Shown here piece after piece: positions 2-16,083 of a stretch of 64,000 nucleotides of DNA. Position 1 is the first letter of the stretch. Each line of letters begins with the position of its first letter. The position numbers and the translations under genes were made by a program. The notes under the pieces were generated by a model. The model ran no database searches. It had not been told where the DNA came from and was given only the letters and a program-made list of their open reading frames with translations. Source of the stretch: Mesorhizobium sp. B2-4-3 (GTDB taxonomy: Bacteria; Pseudomonadota; Alphaproteobacteria; Rhizobiales; Rhizobiaceae); contig NZ_VFVL01000006.1 in the NCBI RefSeq assembly GCF_006442815.1, positions 124,001 through 188,000 on the forward strand, given 5' to 3'.

Positions 2-2065
2 ATCGGTCCGCTCGACCAGTTGCGCAACCTGCCGGCCGGCTTCGAAAACGGCGACCAGGCAAAGCCGATCGAGGAGACGTTCGGGCTCAGCCAGCGCGAG
101 AGGCTGTTGTCGGCCTCCAAGACCGCCTACCGGCAAGCGCTGGAGCGAACCTTCCGCTCGCGGCTGCTGGTGCAGGCGGAGCGGACGATCCAGGCCAGGA
201 TGGCCGACCCCGTCGCACTCTACGAGCCTTTAAAGATCTACCTGATGCTGGGCGGCAAGGCGCCGAAGGTCGACGACGAACTGGTTGTCTCCTGGATGAA
301 GCAGGATTGGGAACAGAACCGCTACCCCGGCGAGAACAACCGCGAGGGCCGCGCGCAGCTCGAAAAGCACCTGCGCGCCATGCTTGCGCTCGACGACGCC
401 TATGATCCGGTCTTCGAGCTCAACCAGCCGCTGGTGGAGGCCGCGCAGCGCTCGCTCGGACGCATGAGCCTCGCCGACCGCGCCTGGGCGCAGATCAAGT
501 CGGCGGTCTACGCCGCAAGGCTCAAGGACTTCTCCATCGCCGCGAGAGCCGGTCCGGAAGCGCAGTTGCTGTTTGAGCGCACGGACGGCAGCGAGCTTGC
601 CGATCTTCAGGTCACCGGCCTCTATACGCGCGGCGGGTTCAATAGCTTCTTCCTGCCGCAGCTGTCGCGCATCGCGCAGATGCTCGTGGACGACCAGTGG
701 GTGCTTGGCGGCGGCGGCGAACAGGTCGGCATCGACCAGGACCTGCCCAAGCTCGGCCCCGAGCTCATCGACCGCTACGGCAAGGAATTCGCCGCCGCCT
801 GGAACGGCGTGCTCGACCAGCTGAAGCTCAAGGCGATGATGAAGGACAAGCCGCAATATCTGGCGCTCTCCGCCGTCGCCGCGCCGGACTCGCCTCTCGA
901 CCAGCTCTTCACCGCGATCGCCGATGAAACCGCATTGACGAAGGACAGCGCCGCCGAGGGCGACACCGGCACGGCGCAGCAGGATCCCGCCAGCATGGCC
1001 AAGGGCCTCGCCCGCATCGGCCTGCAGATCGCCGGCGGCAAGTCGCAAAGCCGCGCCGGCGCAAGCTCGGCCGTCGCGCAAAATGCCGGCGCGAGCGTCG
1101 AGGCGCAGTTCCGCTCGTTCCAGGCGCTGGTCGGCGGGGCCGCCGGACGCCGACCGCTCGATGCGCTGACGCAGAACTTCCACGACATCTTCCAGAGCCT
1201 GAAGCTCGCGGCCGATGTCCCCACTCAGACCGAGCGCGTCAACGCCAACCTGCAACTGCAAATCTCGACATTGCGCGCCAATGTCTCGCGCCTGCCCAAG
1301 CCGCTGGCGCGCATGGTCAACGCGGCGGCGGACGAATTCGAAGGCAATGTCGCCGAGGCCTCCGTCGCCAACCTCAACCAGAGCCTCGACCAGACGGTGA
1401 CGCGCGCCTGCGAGGAGGCGGTCAATGGCCGCTATCCCTTCACCCGCGACGGCACAGACGAGATCTCGATGGCGGATTTCACCAAGCTGTTCGCGCCGGG
1501 TGGGCTGATGGACCGTTTCTTCGCGCAGAATCTTGCGCCGCTGATCGACATGACCGGCCAGGAATGGACCTGGAAACAGGACGCCCGTTCCAGCCGCGAC
1601 CTGGCCAAGTCAACCTTGAAAGCGTTCCAGTCGGCCGCGGAAATCCGTAGCGCCTTCTTCCCTTCCGGCGGCTCGGTGCCTTCGGTCTCGATCACCATCA
1701 CCCCCACGTCTGTGAACAGCGAAGTCGACAGCGCCGTGCTCAATGTCGACGGGCAGACGGTCCAGAGCGCCCAGGCCGGCAACGCGCCGAGCATCGTGAC
1801 ATGGCCGAGCGGCGCCGCTTCCGGATCGGCGAGCCTCAGCCTCGTGCCGGAAATGCCTGGCCGTGAGTCCGCGCTCAAGTTCGAAGGGCCGTGGGCGTTG
1901 AAGCGGCTTTTCGACAAGGCGACCATCACCGGCGACGGCGCCAACACGGAAGCCCGCTTCGTGATCGGCGGACGCGATGTCGCCTACACGATCCAGGCCG
2001 GCTCGGGCGCCAATCCCCTGCTGCTGCCGGCCTTGTCCGGCTTCAGCTGTCCGAAGGCGTTCTGA
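2..2065 (+). CDS. tssM: TssM (ImpL/IcmF) T6SS inner-membrane complex protein, C-terminal part
   Basis: This is the C-terminal portion of TssM, the IcmF-family protein that spans the inner membrane and joins TssL and TssJ in the type VI secretion membrane complex. The reading frame is open to the left edge, so the cytoplasmic GTPase-like and transmembrane parts lie outside the window. About 687 residues of the periplasmic region are visible. They include the alpha-helical body (LYEPLKIYLMLGG, LYTRGGFNSFFLPQL) and the terminal beta domain (SVSITITPTSVNSEVDSAVL, then FEGPWALKRLFDKA) that contacts the TssJ lipoprotein in characterised systems. PP2C and kinase genes follow on the same strand, the usual imp-cluster order. 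Identification is by recognised family motifs and context; only the start is missing. Confidence 0.9.
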   Translation: MGPLDQLRNLPAGFENGDQAKPIEETFGLSQRERLLSASKTAYRQALERTFRSRLLVQAERTIQARMADPVALYEPLKIYLMLGGKAPKVDDELVVSWMKQDWEQNRYPGENNREGRAQLEKHLRAMLALDDAYDPVFELNQPLVEAAQRSLGRMSLADRAWAQIKSAVYAARLKDFSIAARAGPEAQLLFERTDGSELADLQVTGLYTRGGFNSFFLPQLSRIAQMLVDDQWVLGGGGEQVGIDQDLPKLGPELIDRYGKEFAAAWNGVLDQLKLKAMMKDKPQYLALSAVAAPDSPLDQLFTAIADETALTKDSAAEGDTGTAQQDPASMAKGLARIGLQIAGGKSQSRAGASSAVAQNAGASVEAQFRSFQALVGGAAGRRPLDALTQNFHDIFQSLKLAADVPTQTERVNANLQLQISTLRANVSRLPKPLARMVNAAADEFEGNVAEASVANLNQSLDQTVTRACEEAVNGRYPFTRDGTDEISMADFTKLFAPGGLMDRFFAQNLAPLIDMTGQEWTWKQDARSSRDLAKSTLKAFQSAAEIRSAFFPSGGSVPSVSITITPTSVNSEVDSAVLNVDGQTVQSAQAGNAPSIVTWPSGAASGSASLSLVPEMPGRESALKFEGPWALKRLFDKATITGDGANTEARFVIGGRDVAYTIQAGSGANPLLLPALSGFSCPKAF

Positions 2066-2182: not shown

Positions 2183-2962
2183 TTGAGCACTGTCGCCCTC
2201 CCCATCGAAAGCTTCGGCGTGAGCCACAAGGGCTGCGTGCGCGATCACAACGAGGACAATTACCTCATCGAACCGCAGACCGGGCTCTGGGTGGTGGCCG
2301 ACGGCATGGGCGGGCATGAGGCCGGCGAAGTCGCCTCGGCCAGCATCGTCGACCATCTGGCAACGATCGGCATCGCGAGCTCCGCGCCGGACCTTCGCGC
2401 CCGCTTCGAGGACCGGCTCAGCCGCGCCAATGCCGAGATCCGCGACATATCGCGCTCGCGCGGCATCACCATCGGCTCCACGTTCGCGGCCCTGCTTGCC
2501 ATGGATGGACGTTTCGCCTGCCTGTGGGCCGGCGACAGCCGCATCTATCTCGTGCGCAACGGCTCGATCTTCCAGGTTTCGAAGGATCACACCGAGGTGC
2601 AGGAATTGCTCGACCGCGGCATGATCAGCGCGGAGGAAGCGCGCGTCTGGCCGCGCCGCAACGTGATCACGCATGCGGTCGGCGTCAGCGACGAGCTCGA
2701 GATCGATTTCCAGCAGGGCGAGCTGATGGCGGGCGATGTTTTCGTCCTGGGTACCGACGGACTGACCGCGCATGTCAGCGACGCCGAGATCGAGGCCGCG
2801 GTCAGGTCCGCCGCGCCGCGGACGGCATGCCAGACGCTCCTGGATACCGTGCTTGAGCGCGGCGGAACCGACAATGTGACCATCGTGCTCGTGAAGATCG
2901 GCGGCGGGCGCAACAGCGCGCTTCATCCGGATCGGTCCGCAGTGGAGGGCCTGACCAGATGA
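2183..2962 (+). CDS. pppA: PP2C-family Ser/Thr protein phosphatase (PppA-type, T6SS)
   Basis: A 259-residue PP2C phosphatase, the predicted antagonist of the PpkA kinase encoded next. The threonine-phosphorylation switch that controls T6SS assembly in other bacteria uses this pair. The metal-binding motifs are in order: RDHNEDNY (residues 20-27), VADGMGGHEAGE (38-49), WAGDSRIY, GTDGLT and GGTDNVTIV near the end. The start is a TTG at 2183, because a stop codon lies six codons upstream in frame and no ATG is available; a GGTGG stretch sits just before it. In Agrobacterium the phosphatase is fused to TagF; here no TagF part is visible. Its stop overlaps the ppkA start (ATGA, 2959-2962), implying coupled translation. 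Confidence 0.92.
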   Translation: MSTVALPIESFGVSHKGCVRDHNEDNYLIEPQTGLWVVADGMGGHEAGEVASASIVDHLATIGIASSAPDLRARFEDRLSRANAEIRDISRSRGITIGSTFAALLAMDGRFACLWAGDSRIYLVRNGSIFQVSKDHTEVQELLDRGMISAEEARVWPRRNVITHAVGVSDELEIDFQQGELMAGDVFVLGTDGLTAHVSDAEIEAAVRSAAPRTACQTLLDTVLERGGTDNVTIVLVKIGGGRNSALHPDRSAVEGLTR

Positions 2963-5457
2963 ACGACGACGACAAGACGCGGATTTCGACGAACGTCACC
3001 AATACTGGCGTCGGCACGCAGCTCAGCGGCATTTACGAGCTCGACGAGAGGATCGCCTCCGGCGGCATGGGCGAAGTCTATCGCGGCCACAACATCCAGA
3101 CCGGCGACCATGTGGCGATCAAGATCGTGCTGCCAGAATTCGCGCGCGACCAGACGATCCTGTCGCTGTTCCGCAAGGAGGCGTCGATCCTCAACCATTT
3201 GTCGCATGACGCGGTGGTGCGCTACCACGTCTTCACCATCGATACGGGGATCGGCCGTCCCTATCTCGCGATGGAGTTCGTCGACGGCGAGTCGCTGTTC
3301 GACGTCATGCGGCGCGGACCGATGCGGGGGGACGATGTGCGCCGGCTTTGCCATCGCCTCGCCTCCGGCTTGAGCGCCGTGCATCAGGCGGGCGCGGTGC
3401 ACCGCGACCTCTCGCCGGACAACATCATTCTGCCCGGCGGGCGGGTCGAGCGGGCCAAGATCATCGATTTCGGCATCGCTCGCTCGGCGACCGTCGGCGG
3501 CGAAACGCTGATCGGCGGAAAATTCGCCGGCAAATACAACTACGTCTCGCCCGAGCAGCTCGGCCTCTATGGCGGCGAGGTCAGCGAGCAATCCGACATC
3601 TACAGCCTCGGGCTGGTGCTGGCCGCGGCGCTGCGCGGAAAGCCGCTCGACATGAGCGGGTCGCAATACGAGGTCATCGAGAAACGCCGGACCGTGCCGG
3701 ACCTGTCGGATATCGATCCCGATTTTCGCGAGCTGATCGAAGCCATGCTGCAGCCGGATCCGCGCGACCGCCCGGCCAGCATGGCCGAGATCGCCCGGGC
3801 GGCGCGCGACGAGGATCTCGAGCCGACATTGCCGCCGCCGGTGTCGTTCGGCGCACGCGAGCGCTCGGGCCTGCCACGCGCCGGGTGGTCGGCGCCGCCG
3901 GACTCCAAGCCTCAGCCGCCGCCACCTCCCGGCGAGCCGAGCTTCGTCGAGCATGTGCGCCCCGCATATCTGTCGGAGGCACGGCCTCAGCCGGCGAGCA
4001 CGCCCGCGCCGCTCGCGCCCAAAAAGGCTTCGCGGATGCCGGCCATCGCCGGCGGCGTCGCGGCGCTCGCTGTGCTGGTGGGGGGCGGCCTTTATTTCGG
4101 CGGCGTCCTGGCGCCTCCGCCGGTGACGGAAAAATCCAAGCCGCTGACGCCGAAACCGGCCGCGGAAGCCGCCAAACCAGTGGCCGAAGCGCAGCAGCCG
4201 GAGGCGCCGAAACCCCAGCCGCAGGCGCCGGCCGCGCAGCAGCCGGAACTACCGAAACCTGACAGCGCGAAGCCATCCGCCCAACCCAGTGCGGAGGCCA
4301 AGACGCCCGTCGAGCAGCCGACGCTGCCAGCCACCCCGCCGGAGAGCGAAGCAAAGACGCCTGAGGTCGAGACCAAACCCGTGCAACCCCTGGCGCAACA
4401 GTCGCCAACACCTGCGCCGGGCCCCGCACCAACGGCCGCCGAAAGCCAAAAGCCGGCGCAGCCTACAAGCGAGCCGGCTGTCAAGACGCCGGAACCGAGC
4501 CAGGCGGCTGAGAACAAGCCGGCGCAGGCGTCGAAGCCGCCGGCGGCCAAGCCTAGCGTAAAAGACCTGGTGGACATGCTTTCCAAGCTGCCCAAGCCGA
4601 ACGCTTCCCCACCCCCGGCTTCAGAAGGCCAGGCGCCGGCGCAGCCAACCACGTCGCCGGCGGAGCCGAAGGCACAGACCTCGACAGCCAGCCAACCTGA
4701 AGCTCCGACCGCACCAACCCAGCCGGCGCAGCAACCGCAGCCGCCGGCGACCAAGCAGCCGGACACCGACGTCGCCATCAATGTGCCAAAGCCGGCGCTT
4801 CCGTCACTGGAACAGGACACGGCCAAGTGGAACGACCAGCGCTCCTGGGTTCGCGATTTCAGCGGCGGCAGCTGTTTTTACGCGAACGTGACATCGGGAC
4901 CCGGCGCTTCCCCCGCGATCGAGGGATACGGGACGGCGGTCCAAGCCTTCGAACAATTGCTCAGCGATTTCCAGACGAGGTTCCATATCGAGCCGGACAT
5001 CAGCGTGCGCCTCATCACCCTGTCCCAGTGCGGAGTGCCCACTTTCCTTCGCTTCCTTGACCGGAGCTCGGCCGCGAAGCCGCAGCTTGTGCTGGACCGG
5101 ACATCGGTCCCGGACGGCTCGCCGGTCAGCGGCGCGCTCTATACGGGCAGCGGGCTCGTCTCGAACATCATGCTGATCGACCACAAGGGCGTGGCGTTCA
5201 ATCTCGACGACCGCATGGTGCCGCAAACCGACAAGGTGACCTTCAACATCCCGATCGGCCTCGCCGCCGCGGACAAGGCAGCCGGCAAGGCGGTGCCGCA
5301 GATCATGCTGGTGATCACCGGGCCCAAGGACATCCAGGCCGCCATGTTCTCCAGGCCGACGCCGGCCTCGGAGCTTTTGCCCAGGATCCTCGAGGAGATC
5401 GAGGCCGACGGATCGCAGTTCTCCGCCACGGCCACCTATTTCCGGCTTGGCGGATAG
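2959..5457 (+). CDS. ppkA: Membrane-anchored Ser/Thr protein kinase (PpkA-type, T6SS)
   Basis: An 832-residue Hanks-type kinase. The cytoplasmic catalytic domain (about 20-275) has the glycine loop SGGMGEVY (34-41), catalytic K55 in VAIKIV, HRDLSPDN with D150, and DFGIA with D170. A proline-rich stretch is followed by one membrane helix at about 361-383, then a long Pro/Ala/Gln/Lys-rich spacer (about 385-620) and a folded periplasmic C-terminal domain of about 210 residues. The layout is that of a receptor kinase: periplasmic sensing, cytoplasmic phosphorylation. By family knowledge PpkA phosphorylates an Fha protein to trigger T6SS assembly; that substrate is not encoded here. It overlaps pppA by 4 bases and is followed after 11 bases by the DUF1036 gene, so the four genes probably form one operon. 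Confidence 0.92.
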   Translation: MNDDDKTRISTNVTNTGVGTQLSGIYELDERIASGGMGEVYRGHNIQTGDHVAIKIVLPEFARDQTILSLFRKEASILNHLSHDAVVRYHVFTIDTGIGRPYLAMEFVDGESLFDVMRRGPMRGDDVRRLCHRLASGLSAVHQAGAVHRDLSPDNIILPGGRVERAKIIDFGIARSATVGGETLIGGKFAGKYNYVSPEQLGLYGGEVSEQSDIYSLGLVLAAALRGKPLDMSGSQYEVIEKRRTVPDLSDIDPDFRELIEAMLQPDPRDRPASMAEIARAARDEDLEPTLPPPVSFGARERSGLPRAGWSAPPDSKPQPPPPPGEPSFVEHVRPAYLSEARPQPASTPAPLAPKKASRMPAIAGGVAALAVLVGGGLYFGGVLAPPPVTEKSKPLTPKPAAEAAKPVAEAQQPEAPKPQPQAPAAQQPELPKPDSAKPSAQPSAEAKTPVEQPTLPATPPESEAKTPEVETKPVQPLAQQSPTPAPGPAPTAAESQKPAQPTSEPAVKTPEPSQAAENKPAQASKPPAAKPSVKDLVDMLSKLPKPNASPPPASEGQAPAQPTTSPAEPKAQTSTASQPEAPTAPTQPAQQPQPPATKQPDTDVAINVPKPALPSLEQDTAKWNDQRSWVRDFSGGSCFYANVTSGPGASPAIEGYGTAVQAFEQLLSDFQTRFHIEPDISVRLITLSQCGVPTFLRFLDRSSAAKPQLVLDRTSVPDGSPVSGALYTGSGLVSNIMLIDHKGVAFNLDDRMVPQTDKVTFNIPIGLAAADKAAGKAVPQIMLVITGPKDIQAAMFSRPTPASELLPRILEEIEADGSQFSATATYFRLGG

Positions 5458-5468
5458 CATGAACGCCG

Positions 5469-5963
5469 ATGGACCTTCGCACCTTGCGTTCTCCGCCCCA
5501 GCCCTCGCCACGCAAGCAGCGTAGCCGGCTCCGATTGCCGTTCCCGGGCCGCATGACGCTTGCGGCGCTGCTCGGCGCGGCGCTGTTCTCGATCCTTTCG
5601 CCCGGCAAGGCGCATGCCGAATTCACCGTCTGCAACCAGACGCTCGACGTCGTCAATCTCGCCGTCGGACAGAAGGTCGACAATGCCGACCAGACGGACG
5701 GCTGGTGGACGATCGGCGCCAACCAGTGCGTCAACGTCATCCGGGAGGAGCTGACCAACCGCTATATCTATCTCTACGCGACGGACGTCTTCGGCCACGC
5801 GATCCTCAACGGCTTGACCGAGATGTGCATCGACCGGCGGCGCTTCTCGATCCGCGGCATCGACGAGTGCTGGCAGCGCGGCCATATCGCGGCGCGCTTC
5901 GTCGAGGTCGACACGCTCGAGCAGGTGCGCTGGACCTATTTCCTGACCGGAAGCAGCCCGTGA
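5469..5963 (+). CDS. Secreted DUF1036-family protein
   Basis: A small exported protein of the DUF1036 family, whose function is not established. The N-terminus is basic, followed by a hydrophobic helix (MTLAALLGAALFSILSP) and a probable signal-peptidase site after AHA, so the mature protein starts near EFTVCNQT. The mature part shows the family pattern: VCNQTLDVVNLAVG, a WWTIGANQC segment and several conserved cysteines (VCN, NQCVN, EMCID, DECW) that could form disulfides in the periplasm. The true start could be the ATG at 5553, which gives a cleaner signal peptide than the one at 5469. Its stop overlaps the GTG of the next gene (5960-5963), which ties it to the peptidoglycan hydrolase. Confidence 0.82.
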   Translation: MDLRTLRSPPQPSPRKQRSRLRLPFPGRMTLAALLGAALFSILSPGKAHAEFTVCNQTLDVVNLAVGQKVDNADQTDGWWTIGANQCVNVIREELTNRYIYLYATDVFGHAILNGLTEMCIDRRRFSIRGIDECWQRGHIAARFVEVDTLEQVRWTYFLTGSSP

Positions 5964-8401
5964 CGCACTCGATCGACACGAGCTTCAGGCAGAAGAAACA
6001 GGCGCGCCTAGCCGCGCAACGGCGTAAGCTTTGGCGCCGGGCCCTTGCCGGCCTTGCCACGCTCGCCGTCGTCGCTTTAGCCGCCGGCTTCTACCTGACC
6101 AGGGACTACTGGTCGTTCGGCGACGAGGACGAAGAGCTGCATCCCGTCGAGGGCATGGAAGACGTGCCGCCCGACGCCTCGGTCTATGTGCCGGCGATCA
6201 TCGATCTCGCCGGCGATCCGATGTGGATCACGCTGGCGCCAGATGCCGACACCGCGACAAAGGGCAAGACCGTCGCGCGTCCGGCCGGGCTCGACAGCTC
6301 CGGGGCTTCGCCGCAGATCGAAATCCTGTCCGACGTGATGCTGAGCGCCAGCGAAAAGTTCATGACGACGATCCCGTCGACGCAGGAGGATTTCGCCTTC
6401 TTCCAGGCACAGCGGCAGGCCGCTCCGAAGCCTTCGGCAACGAAGCCGGAAGATGAGCAACCGGCCCCGCACGCTCCGGCCGCGGCGCCGGACGATCAAC
6501 AGGGCGATCCGCAAGGCGACCTGCAGAACGATCTCCAGGCGGCGCCGGACGAAAGCGATGCCGGTTCAGCGCCCAAGGCAGACACCGACGATCCAGAGGC
6601 AGGCTGGGGCGAGACCATCGACCAGGGGGAGGCAGCACTCCCGGCTTTCAAGAAAACCGCGATCGAGAACAACACGACCGTTGCGACCGTCGCCAGCGAA
6701 TACCAGCGCTTCGAGGCGACCGAGGACACCTTCGTGAAGATCCTCAACGACCGCAGCCTGGACAGCGTGGCGCTCGACGCGCATTTCTCCGCCGACGACG
6801 CGAAGCTTGCGGGCGAAGCGCTGAAGACGCTCTTCAACCGCGACGGGCTGGAGTCCGGCTTTGTCGTGGCCATGCGCGGGTTCCGGCCGAACCGCGAGAC
6901 GACGACCATGTCGCTGATGCAGGTCTCCATCTACGCGAGGAACGTCTATGTCGGCACGCTGACGCGCAATGCGGCCGGCGCCTTCGTGTCGGGCGTCGAC
7001 CCCTGGGTGCGCGAGGACCTCTTCAACTATTCCGGCGCTTCCGACCAGGGCGGGCCCAAGCGGCAGTACCGCCTGCTCGACGCGATCTACTCGACCGCGG
7101 CGCGCAACAAGGTGCCGACCAGCGTCATCGGCGAGGCGATCATGTATCTGTCGCGGGGACAGGACCTCGACGCCTTCGCCAGCGAGGACCAGCGCCTGGT
7201 GCTGATCTATTCGCAGACGCCGCGCGGCCAGGGCGAGATCTCCGGGCGGGTGCTCTATGTCGGCGTCCAGGGCACGGACAAGAGCCTCGACTGTTTCGTC
7301 TTCCAGCAGAGCGACGGCCAGTATGCCTGTGTGACCGGCGACGACCAGGTCCGCTCGCTGACCGTCACCAACGGCATGGTCACGCCGGTCGCCGGAGTGA
7401 TGACCTCGACCTTCGGCCCGCGCAAGCATCCGATCCTGGGCACGGTTCGAATCCACAAGGGCGTCGACTGGGCGGCGCCGGTCGGCACGCCGATCATGGC
7501 CGCCTTCGACGGCGAGATCTCGTTCCAGGGCGATGGCGGCAGCTATGGCAATCTGGTGAAGATCACGCATGCCAACGGCCGCGAGACGCGCTACGCGCAT
7601 ATGCAGAAATTCGCCATCGCCAGCGGCGTCGGCACCAAGGTGAAGGCTGGCGACGTCATCGGCTACATCGGCACCACGGGGCTTTCGACCGGCCCGCATT
7701 TGCATTTCGAACTCTACCAGAACGGCGAGGCGATCGATCCGCTGGGGACAGTCACCTCGGTCGCTACCGCCGTGTCCGTCAGTTCCGGCGGCTCCGGCGA
7801 TGCCGCGGTCGAGATATTGACCGACCGGATCGTGCATGTCGAAAGCGGCGGCAGCGCGCGAGCCAAGAACCCGCTTTCCTCGGCAACCGGCGCCGGCCAG
7901 TTCATCTCCAAGACCTGGATCCGCATGATGAACACCTATCGCCCCGATCTCGCGCGCTCGCTTTCGACCGCCGATCTGCTTGCGCTTCGCTACGACGCCA
8001 CGCTGTCGCGTGAAATGGTGCGCAACCTGGCGCGCGAAGGGGAAGCCTATCTGCGCGCCCGCGGCCACCAGATCACCGCCGGACGCCTCTATCTTTGCCA
8101 TTTCCTCGGCATGGAAGGCGCGCATCAGGTGCTGGCGGCGCCGGGTTCCTCGCAATTGACCGCGGTGCTCGGATCCGCCGTCATCCAGGCCAACCCGTTC
8201 CTGACCGGCAAGACTGCCAGTTATGTCATGGACTGGGCCGAGCGGAAGATGGGGCAGAAAGCGCCGCGCGTGGTCACCGACCAGGGCCAGCCGACGACAA
8301 CCACGACCGAAGTCCGGCAGACCTCCCCGGAATTCGAAAAGTACAAGCAGGCGATCGCCGCGCTGATAGGTTCGATCCAGGATACGCTGGAGCCCGGCTA
8401 G
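5960..8401 (+). CDS. Membrane-anchored bifunctional peptidoglycan hydrolase (M23 endopeptidase + SLT transglycosylase)
   Basis: An 813-residue protein predicted to cut peptidoglycan in two ways. After a basic N-terminus there is one membrane anchor (about 28-47), an acidic Pro/Asp-rich linker and a helical region. Then comes a LytM/M23 zinc metallopeptidase domain with H499 and D503 (HKGVDW) and H582 in HLHFEL. A lytic transglycosylase-like domain follows, with the probable catalytic E628 in VHVESGG and the GAGQFISKTW motif. Start choice: the frame is open further upstream, but that part lies inside the DUF1036 gene. GTG at 5960 overlaps the previous stop by 4 bases and puts the anchor at the N-terminus. 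Its position beside T6SS genes suggests it opens the cell wall for secretion-apparatus assembly; this is inference. Confidence 0.85.
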   Translation: MTHSIDTSFRQKKQARLAAQRRKLWRRALAGLATLAVVALAAGFYLTRDYWSFGDEDEELHPVEGMEDVPPDASVYVPAIIDLAGDPMWITLAPDADTATKGKTVARPAGLDSSGASPQIEILSDVMLSASEKFMTTIPSTQEDFAFFQAQRQAAPKPSATKPEDEQPAPHAPAAAPDDQQGDPQGDLQNDLQAAPDESDAGSAPKADTDDPEAGWGETIDQGEAALPAFKKTAIENNTTVATVASEYQRFEATEDTFVKILNDRSLDSVALDAHFSADDAKLAGEALKTLFNRDGLESGFVVAMRGFRPNRETTTMSLMQVSIYARNVYVGTLTRNAAGAFVSGVDPWVREDLFNYSGASDQGGPKRQYRLLDAIYSTAARNKVPTSVIGEAIMYLSRGQDLDAFASEDQRLVLIYSQTPRGQGEISGRVLYVGVQGTDKSLDCFVFQQSDGQYACVTGDDQVRSLTVTNGMVTPVAGVMTSTFGPRKHPILGTVRIHKGVDWAAPVGTPIMAAFDGEISFQGDGGSYGNLVKITHANGRETRYAHMQKFAIASGVGTKVKAGDVIGYIGTTGLSTGPHLHFELYQNGEAIDPLGTVTSVATAVSVSSGGSGDAAVEILTDRIVHVESGGSARAKNPLSSATGAGQFISKTWIRMMNTYRPDLARSLSTADLLALRYDATLSREMVRNLAREGEAYLRARGHQITAGRLYLCHFLGMEGAHQVLAAPGSSQLTAVLGSAVIQANPFLTGKTASYVMDWAERKMGQKAPRVVTDQGQPTTTTTEVRQTSPEFEKYKQAIAALIGSIQDTLEPG

Positions 8402-9010: not shown

Positions 9011-10627
9011 ATGAAAGCGTTCGCCATCCTTTTGGGCGGGTTGATCCTGCTTTTCCACGCCGCCATCGGCGCCCAGGCCGCCACGCCCGACAGCAAGCGT
9101 GTCGCGCTGGTCATCGGCAACAGCAAATATGTCAATGCGGTCGCCTTGCCCAACCCGGCCAACGATGCCCACCTCATCGCGTCCACGCTGCGCAACGCGG
9201 GCTTCGAGGTGATCGAAGGCGTCGACCAGGACAATGCCGGCATGCATAGCCTGATCGGCAAGTTCACCGAGGAGTCCTACAATGCCGACCTCGCTGTGAT
9301 CTTCTATGCCGGGCACGGCATGCAGGTCGACGGCAAGAACTACCTCATCCCGGTCGATGCCGAGCTGACGTCGCCGGCCTATCTCAAGACCCGCACGGTG
9401 CAGATCGACGAGTTCATGGCGGCGCTGCCGGCCGATCCCGCCGTCGGCATCATCATCCTCGATGCCTGCCGCGACAATCCGCTGGCACGCACGCTGGCCG
9501 CCGCGCTGCCGAAGAGCCGCTCGCTCGGCGCCGGCCTCGCGCCGGTCGATGCAAAGGCCGACGGCATGGGCACGGGCGGCGTCCTGATCGCCTATGCGAC
9601 CGACCCCGGCGCCATCGCTTTCGACGGCAACGGCGTCGACAGCCCCTATTCGCTGGCCTTGGCCAAGCACCTGACCGAACCGGGCGTCGAGATCCAGAGC
9701 GCCTTGACGCGGGTACGCGGCGAGGTCACGGAAGCCACGCAAGGACGGCAGCGGCCCTGGCACAATGCCTCGTTGGGACGCGAAGTTTTCCTCGGCAAGC
9801 CCACGACACAAACTGCCGCGACGCCGGCCACCGGTGCAGCCGAGACGACGGCGGCGCCCGCCCCTGCTCCCGTGGCCACCGAGGCGCCGTCCTGGGAGGT
9901 CGAGCAGCGGCTTTGGGACGAGGCCTCGAAGAAGAATGCCATTCCCTATTACGAGGCCTATCTCGACCAGTTCCCGAACGGCCGCTTCGCCACGGTGGCG
10001 AAGCTCAATATCGACCAGCTGAAGGATCCGACGGCCGGCAAGCAGATCGCGGCGCCCGGCGCGGACGATGCGAATGCCAATCCAGGCTCGGCCGTTCGCA
10101 CCTCGGTCGGCATCACCGACGAGATGAGAAAGACGCAAGGCAGCGAGCTGACCGAAAGCGCCATCGGCCTCGACCGCGACGGCCGCATCGACCTGCAATT
10201 GCGCATCGAAGCGCTGGGCAACGAGGTTGGGCAGGTCGACGGCAATATCGGCGCGAGGACGCGCCAGGCGATCGGCGCCTGGCAAGGCAAGAACGGCCTG
10301 CCGCCAACCACCTATCTGACGCGCGAACAGCTGGCGTTCCTGGTGATCCAGACCGACCCGATGATGGATGCGGTGCGCGCCAAGAACGCCGCCGACCAGG
10401 TCCGTGCCGCGCCAGCGAAAAAACAGGTCGCGCAGAGGACCCGGACGCTGAAGCCGGTGGCGCAGCAAAAACCGCGCAGGAAACAGACGCAGGTCGTGCA
10501 GCGCAGGCGCAGCAGCGAGACCGTGGTCCGCGAGGATGCGCCGCCGCCAAGAGACAACAACGACTTCCTGACCAAGGCGCTGATCTTCGGCACCGGCATC
10601 GCGGTCGGCGGCGCGCTCAAGAACTGA
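9011..10627 (+). CDS. Secreted caspase-like (peptidase C14) protein with peptidoglycan-binding-like domain
   Basis: A 538-residue exported protein of the caspase/metacaspase clan. A signal peptide (MKAFAILLGGLILLF, cleavage near AQAA) is followed by the p20-like domain starting VALVIGNSKY. The His-Cys dyad is intact: H102 in FYAGHG and C153 in LDACRDNP. A Pro/Ala linker (about 265-300) and a short helical segment follow. Near residue 395 begins a region resembling a peptidoglycan-binding_1 fold (LQLRIEALG, NIGARTRQAIGAWQ). The C-terminus is basic and ends in a hydrophobic stretch, so it may return to the membrane. A GGAGG site precedes the ATG. Substrate is unknown; caspase-like proteins of this type cut after Arg or Lys, but activity here is inferred. 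Confidence 0.87.
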   Translation: MKAFAILLGGLILLFHAAIGAQAATPDSKRVALVIGNSKYVNAVALPNPANDAHLIASTLRNAGFEVIEGVDQDNAGMHSLIGKFTEESYNADLAVIFYAGHGMQVDGKNYLIPVDAELTSPAYLKTRTVQIDEFMAALPADPAVGIIILDACRDNPLARTLAAALPKSRSLGAGLAPVDAKADGMGTGGVLIAYATDPGAIAFDGNGVDSPYSLALAKHLTEPGVEIQSALTRVRGEVTEATQGRQRPWHNASLGREVFLGKPTTQTAATPATGAAETTAAPAPAPVATEAPSWEVEQRLWDEASKKNAIPYYEAYLDQFPNGRFATVAKLNIDQLKDPTAGKQIAAPGADDANANPGSAVRTSVGITDEMRKTQGSELTESAIGLDRDGRIDLQLRIEALGNEVGQVDGNIGARTRQAIGAWQGKNGLPPTTYLTREQLAFLVIQTDPMMDAVRAKNAADQVRAAPAKKQVAQRTRTLKPVAQQKPRRKQTQVVQRRRSSETVVREDAPPPRDNNDFLTKALIFGTGIAVGGALKN

Positions 10628-10685: not shown

Positions 10686-11222
10686 CTATTGCGTCCTGAT
10701 CCGCATTTCCACCCGGCGGTTGACCGGATCATAGGGATTGGCGACGCGCGGATGCGACTTGCCCAGGCCGACCGGCTCGAGTCGGGTAGATTGAACGCCG
10801 TTCGCCGACAGGAAGGCCGCCACCGATTGCGCCCTTCGCTGCGACAGGTCCTGGTTGTAGCGATCCGTGCCGGTCGCGTCGGTGTGGCCTTCCACGACGA
10901 AGCTGAACGTGCTCAGCCGGTTGTCCTTCAGCGCCTTGGCGAACTCATCCAGTTCCGTGCGCGCGGTCTGGTCGAGCTGGGCCGAATCCAGGGCAAAATT
11001 GATCATCATGTCGAGGCCGGCCTTTTGAGGCGGCGCCTCGTTCTTCTCGGCCTTGCTCTTGCACTCTTCCTCGGTGCCGACGCAGATGCCGCGTGACGCG
11101 CCAAGATTACCCTGGCCGGCGAAGTATTTTACGATGTCTTCCGATTTCTGAAGCGGATCGGCGTAAACGTGCGTTGAAAAAAGCACGGTCGCCAATGCCA
11201 AGGCTGAGCTGCCCCACCGCAT
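10686..11222 (-). CDS. OmpA-family outer-membrane/peptidoglycan-binding protein
   Basis: A 178-residue exported protein with a C-terminal OmpA domain that binds diaminopimelate peptidoglycan. The signal peptide MRWGSSALALATVLFSTHVYA is cleaved near ADP. A short linker with two cysteines (GICVGTEEECKS) precedes the OmpA fold, which starts INFALDSAQL. It contains the typical VEGHTDATG, the SQRRAQSVAAFL helix and NRRVEMRI at the end. The start at 11222 is chosen because AGGAG lies 9 bases upstream; the frame is open further up but would spoil the signal peptide. It is convergent with the caspase-like gene and probably anchors an envelope complex to the cell wall. Confidence 0.87.
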   Translation of the reverse strand: MRWGSSALALATVLFSTHVYADPLQKSEDIVKYFAGQGNLGASRGICVGTEEECKSKAEKNEAPPQKAGLDMMINFALDSAQLDQTARTELDEFAKALKDNRLSTFSFVVEGHTDATGTDRYNQDLSQRRAQSVAAFLSANGVQSTRLEPVGLGKSHPRVANPYDPVNRRVEMRIRTQ

Positions 11223-11409
11223 GACCGTCACTCCTGTTTGAGCTCTGTTTGAGCGGGTTTCGCTGGCGCGGACCATATCAAACCTTGAAGCGATTGTCTG
11301 TGACCAAGCGCACGTTGCCAACGGCCGCCACCTGCTAAAAGCTAAGGCTTGACCGGCTCTCGGCTAAAGGCTTGAGTGCTTGTCAGCTGGCTCTCAGGGT
11401 GTGGCAGCC

Positions 11410-11970
11410 ATGGCCAACGAACTCGGATACAGAACCGCAAGGGATCTGTTTCTTGCCTGTCCCGCGATCGCCCGGGACATGAAATCGCCTGCCGCCAATC
11501 AACCCCCGCTGGAATTTTGCCGCGCCCTGCTCGCCGGACGCGTGCCGGAGGAAGCCGTCACGTTCTGCGCCTATCTCCTGCCCGATCGCGCCGCGATCTG
11601 GTGGGGGCATGAATGCCTGAGCCATCTCTCAGAACTCCTTGCCGATAGGGACCTCGAATTGCTGGCGCTCGTCAACGATTGGGTCGGCGAGCCCGGCAAT
11701 CCCCGCCATCGAGCGGCGCTGGGCGATGCCGTCGATCCGTCGCCAACGACACCGGCTGCGTGGATCGCGCTGTCGGCGGCATGGCGTGACCCGGCCTTCG
11801 ACATGCTATCGACCGGATTCCCCGCCGCTCACGCCGTCAACGCCGGGATCCTGGCGGGGCTCGCCCGTGTTTCGACCGCGGACCGCTTTGGCGTGCTTTC
11901 CGCCTTCGTCGAAATGGGCATCCAGATGGTGGAGATGGAGGCCCAGCGGCAATCTGTCGACGCGTATTAG
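11410..11970 (+). CDS. Hypothetical cytoplasmic protein in the T6SS/caspase region
   Basis: A protein of about 186 residues that I do not recognise with confidence; it may belong to a small uncharacterised family found near T6SS genes. It has no signal peptide or membrane helix. It is rich in Ala, Leu and Trp, with alpha-helical segments such as EFCRALLAGRVPEEAV, RAAIWWGHECLSHLSELL, AWIALSAAWRDPAFD and VLSAFVEMGIQMVEME. Start is uncertain: ATG 11410 has AGGGTG upstream; GTG 11401 and TTG 11380 are alternatives. It is flanked by genes on the opposite strand on both sides and therefore has its own promoter. Codon use looks like its neighbours, which supports a real gene. Confidence 0.65.
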   Translation: MANELGYRTARDLFLACPAIARDMKSPAANQPPLEFCRALLAGRVPEEAVTFCAYLLPDRAAIWWGHECLSHLSELLADRDLELLALVNDWVGEPGNPRHRAALGDAVDPSPTTPAAWIALSAAWRDPAFDMLSTGFPAAHAVNAGILAGLARVSTADRFGVLSAFVEMGIQMVEMEAQRQSVDAY

Positions 11971-12011: not shown

Positions 12012-13247
12012 TCATTGGCAGCCGCCTTGCGCCCACCTGGCCAGAGCGACCTTGAAGCGGGTCCCAAGCGGATGCTGCAGGCGCAGCACGGAGACGTCGT
12101 TGGCGGCGAAATTCTTCGCCTGCTCGCACAGGCGGGTCTCGTTCCACTCGTGGCAGCCGTCGCAGTGCTTGCCCTGCCAGACCGACTTGTCGAGGCCTTC
12201 GACCGGACTGAAAAGCGGTTGCCCCTTGATCAATTGGGCTATGCTCTTGCCGTCGATCGCCGGGTCGCCGAACTTGACCGGGCGATCGAAAAAGATCGGG
12301 CCGTCCGTCGCCAGCTTCGGTATCTTTTCACGCAGCATATTGAGCGCAAGCTGGTCGTCGGTCTGGCCGGACGCGCCGGTGTTGCGCGTCCCGGAGCCCG
12401 CTTCGGCCTGCGGTGTGCTCGCCTCGCCGACGATCAGCGGCGCATTGAGATCGACCCTGTGCAGGACGACCTCGGTGGTCAGCGAGACGTTGATCCAGGG
12501 GCGCTGCTTGCCGGCGGTGGCCTTGAAGACGTCGCTGGTCACCCTGTTCATGGCTTCGGTGATGGAGACGTTGGATTCGCCGACATGCTGGAGCAGCGCC
12601 GTGGTGAAGGGCGAGTGGTCGCCCGACCCGTCATAGGCAAGCTGGTTCGGGCTGGCAGCGAAGGCGACCAGCGTGCCGGCGCCGCCATTCTCGATCGGGA
12701 TTTCGGCAAGGCCGCTGCTTGCGCCCTTGATGCCGGCAGTCTTCGCCAGCACGTCGGCAAGCGGATTGTCGCGGCATGCGTCCAGGAAAACCAGCCTTAT
12801 GCTGGTCTCGCGCGACATCTGGCGCAGGACGAAATCGACCGAGACGGCCTCGAAATCGAGCGAGGTCTCGTCCTCGAGCGCGGCATCGACGGGAAGCAGA
12901 TAATTCTTGCCGGAGACCTGAAGGCCATGGCCGGCATAGAAGAAAAGCGCGATGTCGGCGCCGCGCACCTCTCTGGCAAACTGGGCGACCGTATCTTGCG
13001 TCTGCTGCTTGGTGAGGTCGAAGCCGGAGACCACCTCGAAGCCGAGGTCCTTGAGCCGATCGGCCATGGCCTGCGCATCCCGCGCCGGATTGAGGAGCGG
13101 CGCTGCGTGCTGGTACTGCGAGTTGCCGAGCACCAGCGCCACACGCCGCTCGGCGCGCGCGGCCGTCAACGTCAGGAGCAAGGCAAGCGCCACAAGTCCG
13201 GCGGCGCGAAACACGTCACCGCAATGGGCGATCGGAGCGGAACTCAC
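12012..13247 (-). CDS. Secreted caspase-like protein with C-terminal CxxCH motif
   Basis: A 411-residue exported caspase-clan protein, paralogous to the one at 9011. The signal peptide is the hydrophobic GLVALALLLTLTAARA. The p20 domain starts VALVLGNSQY and keeps the dyad H107 (FYAGHG) and C158 (LDACRDNP). Unlike its paralogue it ends with a domain holding HCDGCH (C362, C365, H366), the signature used for covalent c-type heme attachment, plus further cysteines (RLCEQ, GGCQ). The start is a GTG at 13247, placed just after the stop of the YceI-OmpA gene (AGGTGG lies upstream); GTG 13253 and a GTG near 13214 are alternatives. The frame stays open upstream but there it lies antiphase inside the YceI-OmpA gene. 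The two genes are probably cotranscribed. Confidence 0.85.
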   Translation of the reverse strand: MSSAPIAHCGDVFRAAGLVALALLLTLTAARAERRVALVLGNSQYQHAAPLLNPARDAQAMADRLKDLGFEVVSGFDLTKQQTQDTVAQFAREVRGADIALFFYAGHGLQVSGKNYLLPVDAALEDETSLDFEAVSVDFVLRQMSRETSIRLVFLDACRDNPLADVLAKTAGIKGASSGLAEIPIENGGAGTLVAFAASPNQLAYDGSGDHSPFTTALLQHVGESNVSITEAMNRVTSDVFKATAGKQRPWINVSLTTEVVLHRVDLNAPLIVGEASTPQAEAGSGTRNTGASGQTDDQLALNMLREKIPKLATDGPIFFDRPVKFGDPAIDGKSIAQLIKGQPLFSPVEGLDKSVWQGKHCDGCHEWNETRLCEQAKNFAANDVSVLRLQHPLGTRFKVALARWAQGGCQ

Positions 13248-13254
13248 CGCCACC

Positions 13255-14346
13255 TCAGTTGGCGAGCTTGCTGGCGGAGAATTCGATCCGCCGGTTGAGC
13301 GCCTTGTTCTTGGGCGTGTCGTTGGCGGCGACAGGCTTGTCCTCGCCATAGCCGGCCGAGCTGATCTGGTTGCGCGGGACGCCGTCCGCCACCAGCGCGT
13401 CGGCGACCGCCTGGGCGCGCCGTTCGGAGAGCGCCTTGTTCGCCTCGGGCGACCCGTCGGAATCGGTGTAGCCGGACACCTCGACCTTGAGGGTGGGGCA
13501 TTTGCCGACGACACCTTCCACCTCAGCCAGCAGCGGGCGGCTCTTCGCGTCGAGCCTTGCGCTTGCCTGACGGAAATAGATGGCGCCGGTGCGCGAGAGG
13601 ACGGCAAACCTGTTGAGGCACTCCTCGTCGTTGAAATTGGCTTTCGCGGCATCGGTGGCGACAGGGCCGACCTCGGCGACACCGGCCGCGACGGTCTGCA
13701 CAGCTGCCGGCTTGGTGCCGTCGGCGGTGAAGACGAAATCGAAGGACACCGAAGCGGTCGGCACGATGTTGGTCACGTTGGCGGCCTGCTGCAATTTGTC
13801 GATGTTGGGCAAGAGCCCGAAATCCTCGACATGGACAGCGACGGGCGCCTCCGAAGCGACGGAGACCTGGGTGTCGCTGATCATGGTGACGACGACGCTC
13901 GCCTCGAGATCCTTGTCGACGCCATGCAGGCTGAGGCGGAACGGCAATGTCGTCTTCACCCGGCGCTTGGCCGGCAGATCGGCGAACGCCGCGGGATCCA
14001 CCTTCGCCGTCACTTCGGCCGTCGGATAGGTGAATGTCTCGAAAAACAGAAAGCGCATGCGAACATTGCGCAGGTCGACGCCCGTATCGACGGAATTGAG
14101 GTCGAAGCTGATCTTGGCGTCGCCGGCGGAACTCAGCGTGCCGGTGATGTTCCTGATCTTGTTGGTCTCGACGATCGTGTTCTTCTTGACCGACTGGTAG
14201 GTGAGCACCGAGGCGGCCGGATCGAGCGTCCAGTTGGGCGCGGCGCTCGCGGCCTGCGATCCGAAGACCAACAGCGCGGCAACGATCAAGCCAAGAGCCG
14301 CGGCCTTGGCTTGCATTTTTCGCCAGAATGCGACGACTTCGAACAT
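13255..14346 (-). CDS. YceI-OmpA fusion envelope protein
   Basis: A 363-residue secreted two-domain protein. After a signal peptide (QAKAAALGLIVAALLVFGS, cleavage near ASAA) residues about 40-205 form a YceI-like lipocalin fold: NWTLDPAASVLTYQSVKK, the ISFDLNSVDTGVDLRN strand pair, and LPFRLSLHGVDKDLEAS. YceI domains bind isoprenoid-type lipids. Residues about 235-363 form an OmpA peptidoglycan-binding domain (IYFRQASARLD, VEVSGYTDSDGSPEAN, LSERRAQAVADAL, NRRIEFSAS). Start 14346 is preferred; ATG 14316 would also give a signal peptide. It lies between the truncated caspase gene and the intact CxxCH caspase on the same strand, so the three probably form one transcript. Confidence 0.85.
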   Translation of the reverse strand: MFEVVAFWRKMQAKAAALGLIVAALLVFGSQAASAAPNWTLDPAASVLTYQSVKKNTIVETNKIRNITGTLSSAGDAKISFDLNSVDTGVDLRNVRMRFLFFETFTYPTAEVTAKVDPAAFADLPAKRRVKTTLPFRLSLHGVDKDLEASVVVTMISDTQVSVASEAPVAVHVEDFGLLPNIDKLQQAANVTNIVPTASVSFDFVFTADGTKPAAVQTVAAGVAEVGPVATDAAKANFNDEECLNRFAVLSRTGAIYFRQASARLDAKSRPLLAEVEGVVGKCPTLKVEVSGYTDSDGSPEANKALSERRAQAVADALVADGVPRNQISSAGYGEDKPVAANDTPKNKALNRRIEFSASKLAN

Positions 14347-14464
14347 GGAACGCCCCGCCAGGACAACCCGATCTCGATACCGGCACGTGACCGGAGCATA
14401 GAGCACTTGTCGGGGCTTGGCGAGCAGGTTCCAGCGGGAAGCGAAAACCGTCATCGAAATCTCA

Positions 14465-14722
14465 TCACCAGCCACCGTCGCCGCGAGATAACTCCTTCTC
14501 GAACTGGAGCTTGGTCAGGTCCTTGGCGACGAACACGTCGAAGCCGGCCAGCCGGAAGGTGTTCGACACGTCCTCGGCATCCTTGTCTGGATTCTTCAGG
14601 GCCGGAATTTCGCGGTATTCGGAATTGCCGATGACAAGGGCAACCCTTCGATCGGCGCATGCCTGCACCGTCGTGAGGCCCACGACGATCAAGGCTGCAA
14701 TCAGTGAGCAGCACCGCAGCAT
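14465..14722 (-). pseudogene. Truncated caspase-like gene (N-terminal 85 residues)
   Basis: An 85-residue reading frame with a good signal peptide (MLRCCSLIAALIVVGL, cleavage near ACA) and the first part of a caspase p20 domain (DRRVALVIGNSEYREIPAL, AEDVSNTFRLAGFDVFVA). It stops at LSRGDGGW before the catalytic His and Cys blocks, so it cannot be a protease of this clan. It is closely related to the N-termini of the caspase-like proteins at 9011 and 12012. It is most simply a gene broken by deletion, although a secreted short form that pairs with the intact paralogues cannot be excluded. It lies 118 bases upstream of the YceI-OmpA start on the same strand. Confidence 0.75.
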
Positions 14723-14908
14723 GGCAAAATCCCTAACTGCTCGTCGGCCACAAGAACGCAGCTTGCGACATCGTGGTCTGTTAAAGACTTCACAATCTGC
14801 CAAGACGGCAAGGAAACGCGCCTGCGAGGCAGATCGCGCATCCAATAAACTGCTAAAATAGCTCAGAGGCCCGGGCGCCGCAATGACCTGGGCAGATGCG
14901 ATCCCGAT

Positions 14909-14935
14909 GATGACGCCCGGTCTCAGCCGGGCATC
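14909..14935 (-). terminator. Stem-loop downstream of the binding-protein gene
   Basis: GCCCGG (14915-14920) and CCGGGC (14927-14932) form a stem with flanking partly paired bases. It lies about 30 bases past the stop codon of the minus-strand binding-protein gene. No T-tract follows, so the terminator call is tentative. Confidence 0.4.
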
Positions 14936-14964
14936 CTCGGTCACGCTCACCCGCCTGGGCCGCA

Positions 14965-16083
14965 TTATTTCTCGGCGTATGTCGGCTTGCCGTCCGCGCC
15001 CTTCTTCCATTCGTAGATGACATAGTCGGGGCGCGTGATGTCGCCCTTCTCGTCATAGCCGATGTCGCCGATCGCCGTCTTCCACGGGCCGCCTGCCTTG
15101 ATGGTGGCGCCGACCTTTTGCGCGTCGTCGGCCGAGCCGGTCTTGTCGATCGCCGCGGCGACGATCTGGACCGCCGCGTAGGAGTAGAGTGTGTAGGCTT
15201 CCGGCTCGAAACCCGAGGCACGGAATTTTTCGACGATGTCCTTGGCGGCGGGGTTTTTCCGCGGGTCCGGCGAGAAGGTGTTCAAGGTGCCGATAACCGA
15301 ATCGCCGGCGATTGAGGCAAGCTCGTTCGAGACCATTCCGTCGCCCGAGAACAGCGTCGCCTTCAGACCCTGATCCGCCGACTGGCGCATGATCAGGCCC
15401 GCCTCGGTGTGGAGACCGCCGAAATAGATCAGCGTGACGCCGGCCGCCTTCATCTTGGCGATGAGCGCGGAGAAATCCTTGTCGCCGACATTGATGCCTT
15501 CATACATCACCTCGGTGATGCCGTCGGCGTTCAGGTCCTTCTTGGCGACATCGACGAGGCCTTGGCCGTAAGGCGTCTTGTCGTGGACGATGGCGATCTT
15601 GGCGTCCTTGAAATTCGCGGCGATATAGTCTCCCGCGACCTTGCCCTGCTGGTCGTCGCGGCCGCAGGTGCGGAAGGTGTTCCAGAGGCCGCGCTCGGTA
15701 TATTGCGGATTGGTCGATGCTGGCGATACCTCGAGCACGCCGTTCTCGGCATAGACTTCCGAGGCGGGGATCGACACGCCCGAGTTGAAGTGGCCGACCA
15801 CATATTTCACGCCGTCCGCGACGAATTTGTTGGCGACCGAAATGCCCTGCTTCGGATCGGAGACATCGTCGCCGATCTCGATCTTGATCTTCTGGCCGAG
15901 CACGCCGCCGGCCGCGTTGATGTCGGCGGCCGCTTGTTCGGCGCCTTTCTGGAACTGCGCGCCGAAAGCCGCGTTCGGACCGGTGATCGGCCCGGCGACG
16001 CCGATGACGATGTCCGCCCAGGCGTTGCCCGCGAAGGCGACAAGCGCTGCCACTGCCACCGCCGACAGAAGATATTTTTTCAT
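14965..16083 (-). CDS. Branched-chain amino acid ABC transporter substrate-binding protein (LivK/LivJ type)
   Basis: A 372-residue periplasmic binding protein. The signal peptide [19 protein letters not shown] ends near AWA. The mature part has the Leu/Ile/Val-binding fold: [20 protein letters not shown], the [16 protein letters not shown] hinge segment, [11 protein letters not shown] and [14 protein letters not shown]. Start 16083 has GGGAGCC upstream, which agrees with the signal peptide. It stands alone: no permease or ATPase gene adjoins it, so it must share a membrane unit encoded elsewhere, possibly the Liv-type system at 42-45 kb or one outside the window. Branched-chain amino acids are the family default ligands; the actual ligand cannot be read from sequence. 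Confidence 0.88.

Follow-up and report, generated by a model that had tools for sequence, protein, structure and literature searches.

A conserved CxxCH domain, putatively of c-type heme, with a constant YceI-OmpA partner and a variable caspase at type VI secretion loci of Alphaproteobacteria

The C-terminal domain of a secreted caspase-like protein of Mesorhizobium sp. B2-4-3 carries an invariant CxxCH motif, and its constant partner is a protein that joins a YceI lipocalin to an OmpA peptidoglycan-binding domain. Judged from the sequences of its relatives, the CxxCH domain outlives the caspase part in evolution. The reading proposed here, to which we give slightly better than even chances, is that of an undescribed small periplasmic domain with a bis-His c-type heme, which would be the redox partner of the peptidoglycan-anchored YceI lipocalin and would have been adopted by alphaproteobacterial type VI secretion system (T6SS) loci, with a caspase added.

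The caspase-CxxCH protein

The gene lies on the minus strand of the window, i.e., the whole stretch of 64,000 nucleotides that was analysed, at 12012..13214. It encodes a protein of 400 residues with a match to Peptidase_C14 (E 1.2e-44; PF00656, 153 bits against a cut-off of 21.4). The GTG at 13214 is preferred as start codon because a relative (L006) has an ATG at the same spot; from there the protein begins with a predicted Sec signal peptide, VFRAAGLVALALLLTLTAARA (13152..13214, minus strand), read directly from the sequence, and the hydrophobic N-terminus is conserved in relatives. The caspase domain found by Pfam (12468..13145, minus strand) is paracaspase-like. Its nearest solved relative in the PDB, by sequence (E 1.4e-13) and by fold, is the MALT1 paracaspase (PDB 3V4O and others), which differs in being a human cytosolic signalling protease without a CxxCH domain. 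The His-Cys dyad is intact in the alignment, with the His in YAGHG (12927..12929, minus strand, alignment column H75) and the Cys in LDACRDN (12774..12776, minus strand, alignment column C126), and protease activity is predicted. A linker predicted to be disordered (pLDDT <50, model residues 237-264) joins the caspase to the C-terminal domain of 96 residues (12015..12302, minus strand).

The preliminary description of this DNA had placed the motif HCDGCH in the C-terminal domain of the second caspase, and it is indeed encoded there, at 12167-12150 on the minus strand, inside the open frame with the Peptidase_C14 match. CDGCH itself (12150..12164, minus strand) supplies C47 and C50, the putative attachment site of heme c, and H51, the putative proximal ligand. 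In the whole protein, these residues are C351, C354 and H355. The numbering C362-H366 given previously is shifted by 11 because a different start codon, the GTG near 13247, had been assumed. Likewise, the span 12012-12200 that had been assigned to the domain includes the motif but covers only its last two thirds (12302-12015). The further cysteines that had been reported for the domain are C59, in an LCxQ motif (12126..12128, minus strand), and C95 (12018..12020, minus strand), which may be disulfide partners. The His of an HPxG motif, H77 (12072..12074, minus strand), is the putative distal heme ligand. In the numbering of the alignment, H77 and C95 become H78 and C96.

Conservation and distribution of the CxxCH domain

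Homologues were collected with the domain as protein query against genomes, by tblastn against plasmids and by scanning 84,980 species genomes. CxxCHxW, LCxQ, HP and the C-terminal Cys are kept in 127/127 open frames with the domain, which makes CxxCH a conserved feature of exported homologues. Its absence from orthologues had been named as an outcome that would count against a heme site; it is present in all of them. The same holds in 43/43 loci found by whole-domain similarity with no motif requirement, where CxxCH, LCxQ, HP and the last Cys are all retained. Among 113 distinct domain sequences from Hyphomicrobiales and Rhodobacterales, the invariant positions are P29, P33, W42, C47, C50, H51, W53, C59, Q61, H78, P79, K85, W91, A92 and C96. 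On this conservation, the CxxCH motif is not a chance occurrence.

The two residues between the CxxCH cysteines vary freely, with 21 different pairs in the 113 distinct domains. Such an arrangement, with Cys, Cys and His fixed and the xx pair free, is typical of c-type heme sites. The His of HPxG is the only other conserved His in this set, which points naturally to bis-His ligation. The earlier remark that no Met ligand is evident was correct: the window domain contains no Met at all, and none is conserved among the 113. CcmE, a component of heme c maturation, was found in 44/44 carriers; since it is common throughout the class, this weak and non-discriminating observation only fails to refute the heme.

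All 80 lineage-named loci among the matches listed from the 84,980 species genomes are alphaproteobacterial, and 19 further relatives were confirmed. In a sample of 249 Pseudomonadota genomes, the domain occurs in Mesorhizobium-type genomes and in one Rhodobacterales genome only. A scan of viral contigs gave no relatives of the domain.

Fold and possible cofactors

Searches of Pfam, NCBIfam and the PDB with the domain alone and with a set of 57 members returned nothing significant. The AlphaFold model, made without cofactor, is confident (pLDDT 91, pTM 0.82) and consists of short helices only. A Foldseek search of the PDB with this model found no significant fold match, and cytochrome c entries appeared at chance level (E 1.9-8). 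As none of the searches (Pfam, NCBIfam, PDB sequence, Foldseek) gave a significant match to a cytochrome family or fold, the domain is not filed as a cytochrome; it probably works like one all the same. A match of the domain set to a c555 trimer was rejected, with CxxCH alone behind it and no single repeat significant. A thioredoxin-like CxxC oxidoreductase was also ruled out: the model is all-helical and therefore has no thioredoxin fold, and no PDB fold was matched.

Two known families of unusual heme c domains are similar to the CxxCH domain in part. One is DUF3365 (sCache_heme, Tll0287), whose CXXCH is conserved to an exceptional degree in a fold other than that of a cytochrome, and where heme c was shown by experiment (PMC12889525). 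It resembles the present domain as an exported non-cytochrome domain with an absolutely conserved CXXCH that stands alone or is fused to output domains (PMC12889525), but its fold is that of Cache, whereas the domain described here is small and all-helical. Membership was rejected on the all-helical model and the lack of a Pfam match in the 57 members. Magnetochrome (MCR) is likewise small, restricted to certain lineages and fused to other domains, and it binds a single heme c with bis-His ligation (PH + CXXCH) (PMC3971196), the heme being putative in our case. An MCR unit is defined by PH, 5-9 residues and CX2CH within 19-28 residues. The CxxCH domain has about 95 residues, two extra invariant cysteines and its HP after CxxCH instead of a PH before it; this position of the other His and the absence of a Pfam match exclude it from the family.

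The four cysteines could alternatively form two structural or redox-active disulfides (e.g., C47-C50 and C59-C95) in a heme-free domain that serves as an adaptor for the YceI-OmpA protein. The protein is exported, its four cysteines are invariant as a set, small helical domains are often stapled by disulfides, and known cytochromes are not matched, all of which fit such an arrangement. However, disulfides leave the invariant His after the second Cys, the invariant His of HP and the free xx pair unexplained, and in Ccm-bearing cells heme is normally attached to an exported CxxCH. The fold is also not that of thioredoxin. We hold disulfides without heme to be possible, although on the unlikely side. 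Structural zinc (Cys3-4/His) would find sufficient invariant ligands in C47, C50, H51, C59, H78 and C96, and two members gave a RecR_ZnF match, at chance level (E 0.056). Cys-zinc sites are rare in exported proteins, however, because Dsb oxidises the thiols, and the Pfam zinc-finger matches are insignificant; a zinc site thus has a very low probability.

A constant partner, the YceI-OmpA protein

The gene next to the caspase-CxxCH gene (13255..14475, minus strand) encodes the YceI-OmpA protein (Pfam YceI 2.5e-12, OmpA 9.2e-23; the YceI domain, PF04264, scores 47.9 bits against a cut-off of 23.7). About 40 bases separate its end from the caspase start, with both genes on one strand in an operon-like arrangement; in Rhodobacterales it is often divergent from the CxxCH gene. 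A YceI-OmpA gene adjoins the CxxCH gene in 97/98 frames examined, some of which are the same locus seen twice. In the sole exception (L015), it was present once the flank was widened (L140).

The pairing was quantified across 295 Rhodobacterales genomes, a fixed sample in which strong YceI-OmpA matches (E <1e-47) are well separated from the next one (2.6e-24). The domain and the YceI-OmpA protein occur in exactly the same 39/295 genomes (Fisher p 1.3e-49); Fisher values of this kind overstate the evidence, as the genomes of one order are related and not independent. The two genes are 0.65-3.2 kb apart in 38 of the 39, and in the remaining one they are on different contigs of a 340-contig assembly. 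The pairing also holds where the caspase or the T6SS is missing.

On the other side of the YceI-OmpA gene, the window contains an N-terminal fragment of a third caspase (14465-15010, minus strand). It may be a decayed copy, as many relatives carry a caspase-like frame farther upstream of the YceI-OmpA gene.

The caspase as the variable part

About 15 of the 78 dereplicated rows lack the caspase but keep the CxxCH domain and the YceI-OmpA partner. Caspase-less proteins (L022, L025, L026, L059, L062, L092 and several short frames) have nothing but a signal peptide and a short spacer ahead of the CxxCH domain. Other caspases are degenerate (L017, L023, L024, L027), Tyr-Ser replaces the His-Cys dyad in L012/L075, and an SH3-like N-terminus takes the place of the caspase in L015. 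In a tree of the domain, which has few columns and many unresolved forks, the three caspase states need 7 changes, of which well-supported branches force at least 2, and a clade of pseudo-caspases stands beside a caspase-less one.

These losses bear on the idea, put forward in the preliminary description, that the domain is a heme or redox sensor that switches the proteolysis of the caspase on or off. Most caspase-bearing copies keep the His-Cys dyad (103/127 frames flagged HC, the automatic labels missing caspases with RMAL as first strand, L106 and L112, as well as L129, a frame without the N-terminal caspase part), and both domains sit on one polypeptide, joined by the disordered linker. 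Nevertheless, loss of the dyad or of the caspase leaves both the domain and its YceI-OmpA partner in place. Gating the caspase is therefore not the general function of the domain, the caspase having decayed or been lost in several lineages that keep the domain, and a heme- or redox-responsive caspase is considered unlikely; it may be a lineage-specific role.

Similar variability is known from orthocaspases and pseudo-orthocaspases, which share the p20 with His-Cys dyad, a signal peptide, variable C-terminal extensions and a frequent loss of the dyad in Alphaproteobacteria (PMC3501461, PMC6426788). The main texts of these two papers do not mention the CxxCH domain, and the words cytochrome and heme are absent from them.

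Unusual architectures were also seen. In L060, the CxxCH domain terminates a long protein (4738-6285, plus strand) whose N-terminus looks cytosolic and which has a single transmembrane stretch and three TFT[KR][DE]LSDTTTV-like repeats. The fusion of an SH3-like region to the CxxCH domain (L015:805-1782 and L140:7897-8874, both plus strand) adjoins a YceI-OmpA gene in a genome without TssK.

Association with type VI secretion

A T6SS cluster immediately precedes the window and continues upstream of it with tssJ, tssK, tssL, tssM, a PAAR-like gene and vgrG. The window itself opens with an IcmF/TssM-type T6SS protein (20..2065, plus strand), followed by a PP2C phosphatase and a Ser/Thr kinase resembling the PppA/PpkA pair (2183..5457, plus strand), the first caspase, with a PG_binding_1 domain (9011..10627, plus strand), a small OmpA-family protein (10686..11321, minus strand) and a DUF6931 protein (11380..11970, plus strand). 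The DUF6931 gene is a conserved neighbour in Mesorhizobium, adjoining the caspase-CxxCH gene on the opposite strand in nearly all Mesorhizobium-type loci. Two IcmF/TssM-type genes are found in one T6SS region (window 20-2065 and L102:4766-8338); in the window frame, an IcmF N-terminal domain was not seen, and the actual start may lie outside the window, on its upstream side.

Among Rhodobacterales, TssK is present in 36/39 carriers of the domain and in 42/256 non-carriers (Fisher 5e-21, a value overstated by kinship). Counted by genus, it is present in 20/21 carriers (p 6e-9). Of the long, caspase-bearing frames of this order, 18/25 are within 15-33 kb of tssK. On the Parasedimentitalea plasmid pQS-2, YceI-OmpA comes first, followed by caspase-CxxCH, DUF4384, ExbD, ExbD, ExbB, two hypotheticals and then tssA, tssB, tssC onward. 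In Rhodobacterales, most loci with a caspase have the set DUF4384-ExbD-ExbD-ExbB 3' of its gene (e.g., L133:5255-8261); this set may form a motor driven by protons and attached to the T6SS. TssK is missing from a few carriers (G783, G812, G813, G087), and thus the module is not strictly a part of the T6SS.

Linkage to T6SS clusters would also be expected of a T6SS cargo effector or immunity protein, rather than a member of an envelope complex. The predicted Sec signal peptide, the invariable pairing with a wall-anchored partner and the carriers without TssK argue against this reading, which we regard as extremely improbable. A defence system was rejected as well, the PADLOC matches being to a generic caspase and MotB/OmpA only. 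Literature searches for T6SS together with caspases turned up nothing relevant, and caspases go unmentioned in a published survey of roseobacter T6SS clusters (PMC9515649).

Proposed mechanism and related systems

In the preferred reading, that of a bis-His heme domain serving the YceI lipocalin, one c-type heme would be bound covalently to the domain through thioether bonds to the CxxCH cysteines, as their conservation suggests. The His of CxxCH would be its proximal and the His of the invariant HPxG its distal axial ligand, and C59 and C95 may form a stabilising disulfide. The OmpA domain of the partner would anchor it to peptidoglycan, and the YceI barrel, going by its family, would hold an isoprenoid or quinone.

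Ligands of YceI lipocalins include isoprenoids such as ubiquinone-8, and in Burkholderia cenocepacia the YceI lipocalin BcnA works with the linked cytochrome b561 LcoA against lipid peroxyl radicals (PMC9113575). Electron supply from LcoA to the quinone bound by BcnA was proposed by the authors, who also reported fusions of YceI lipocalins and cytochrome b561 in many Alphaproteobacteria (PMC9113575). In both systems, the gene of a YceI lipocalin is linked to that of a heme protein, a putative one in ours. The differences are that LcoA is a membrane b561, whereas the CxxCH domain is soluble and exported with a putative c heme, and that the YceI domain described here is fused to an OmpA wall-binding domain at a T6SS-linked locus. 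By analogy with cytochrome b561 and BcnA, the CxxCH domain would probably exchange electrons with the YceI-bound quinone, and the outcome would be a periplasmic redox relay or sensor anchored to the wall.

Most carriers have the module inside or close to a T6SS cluster, where the caspase would be an added output or docking domain that was lost in some lineages. That the redox state is signalled to the T6SS or the caspase is a guess. A more far-reaching version, in which the bis-His heme and YceI form a quinone redox sensor of the T6SS, the fused caspase converts its signal to proteolysis, and respiration or oxidative membrane damage thereby controls the secretion weapon, is distinctly unlikely.

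Conclusions

The CxxCH domain represents an undescribed domain family, for which no Pfam or NCBIfam model was found, with a covalent heme prediction and an obligate partner. As natural lineages have lost the caspase, its contribution can be tested by comparison. Caspases are placed in a concrete envelope complex at T6SS loci, a setting that is not described in the literature searched. Furthermore, the putative heme domain would be a second way of keeping a YceI lipocalin in redox turnover.
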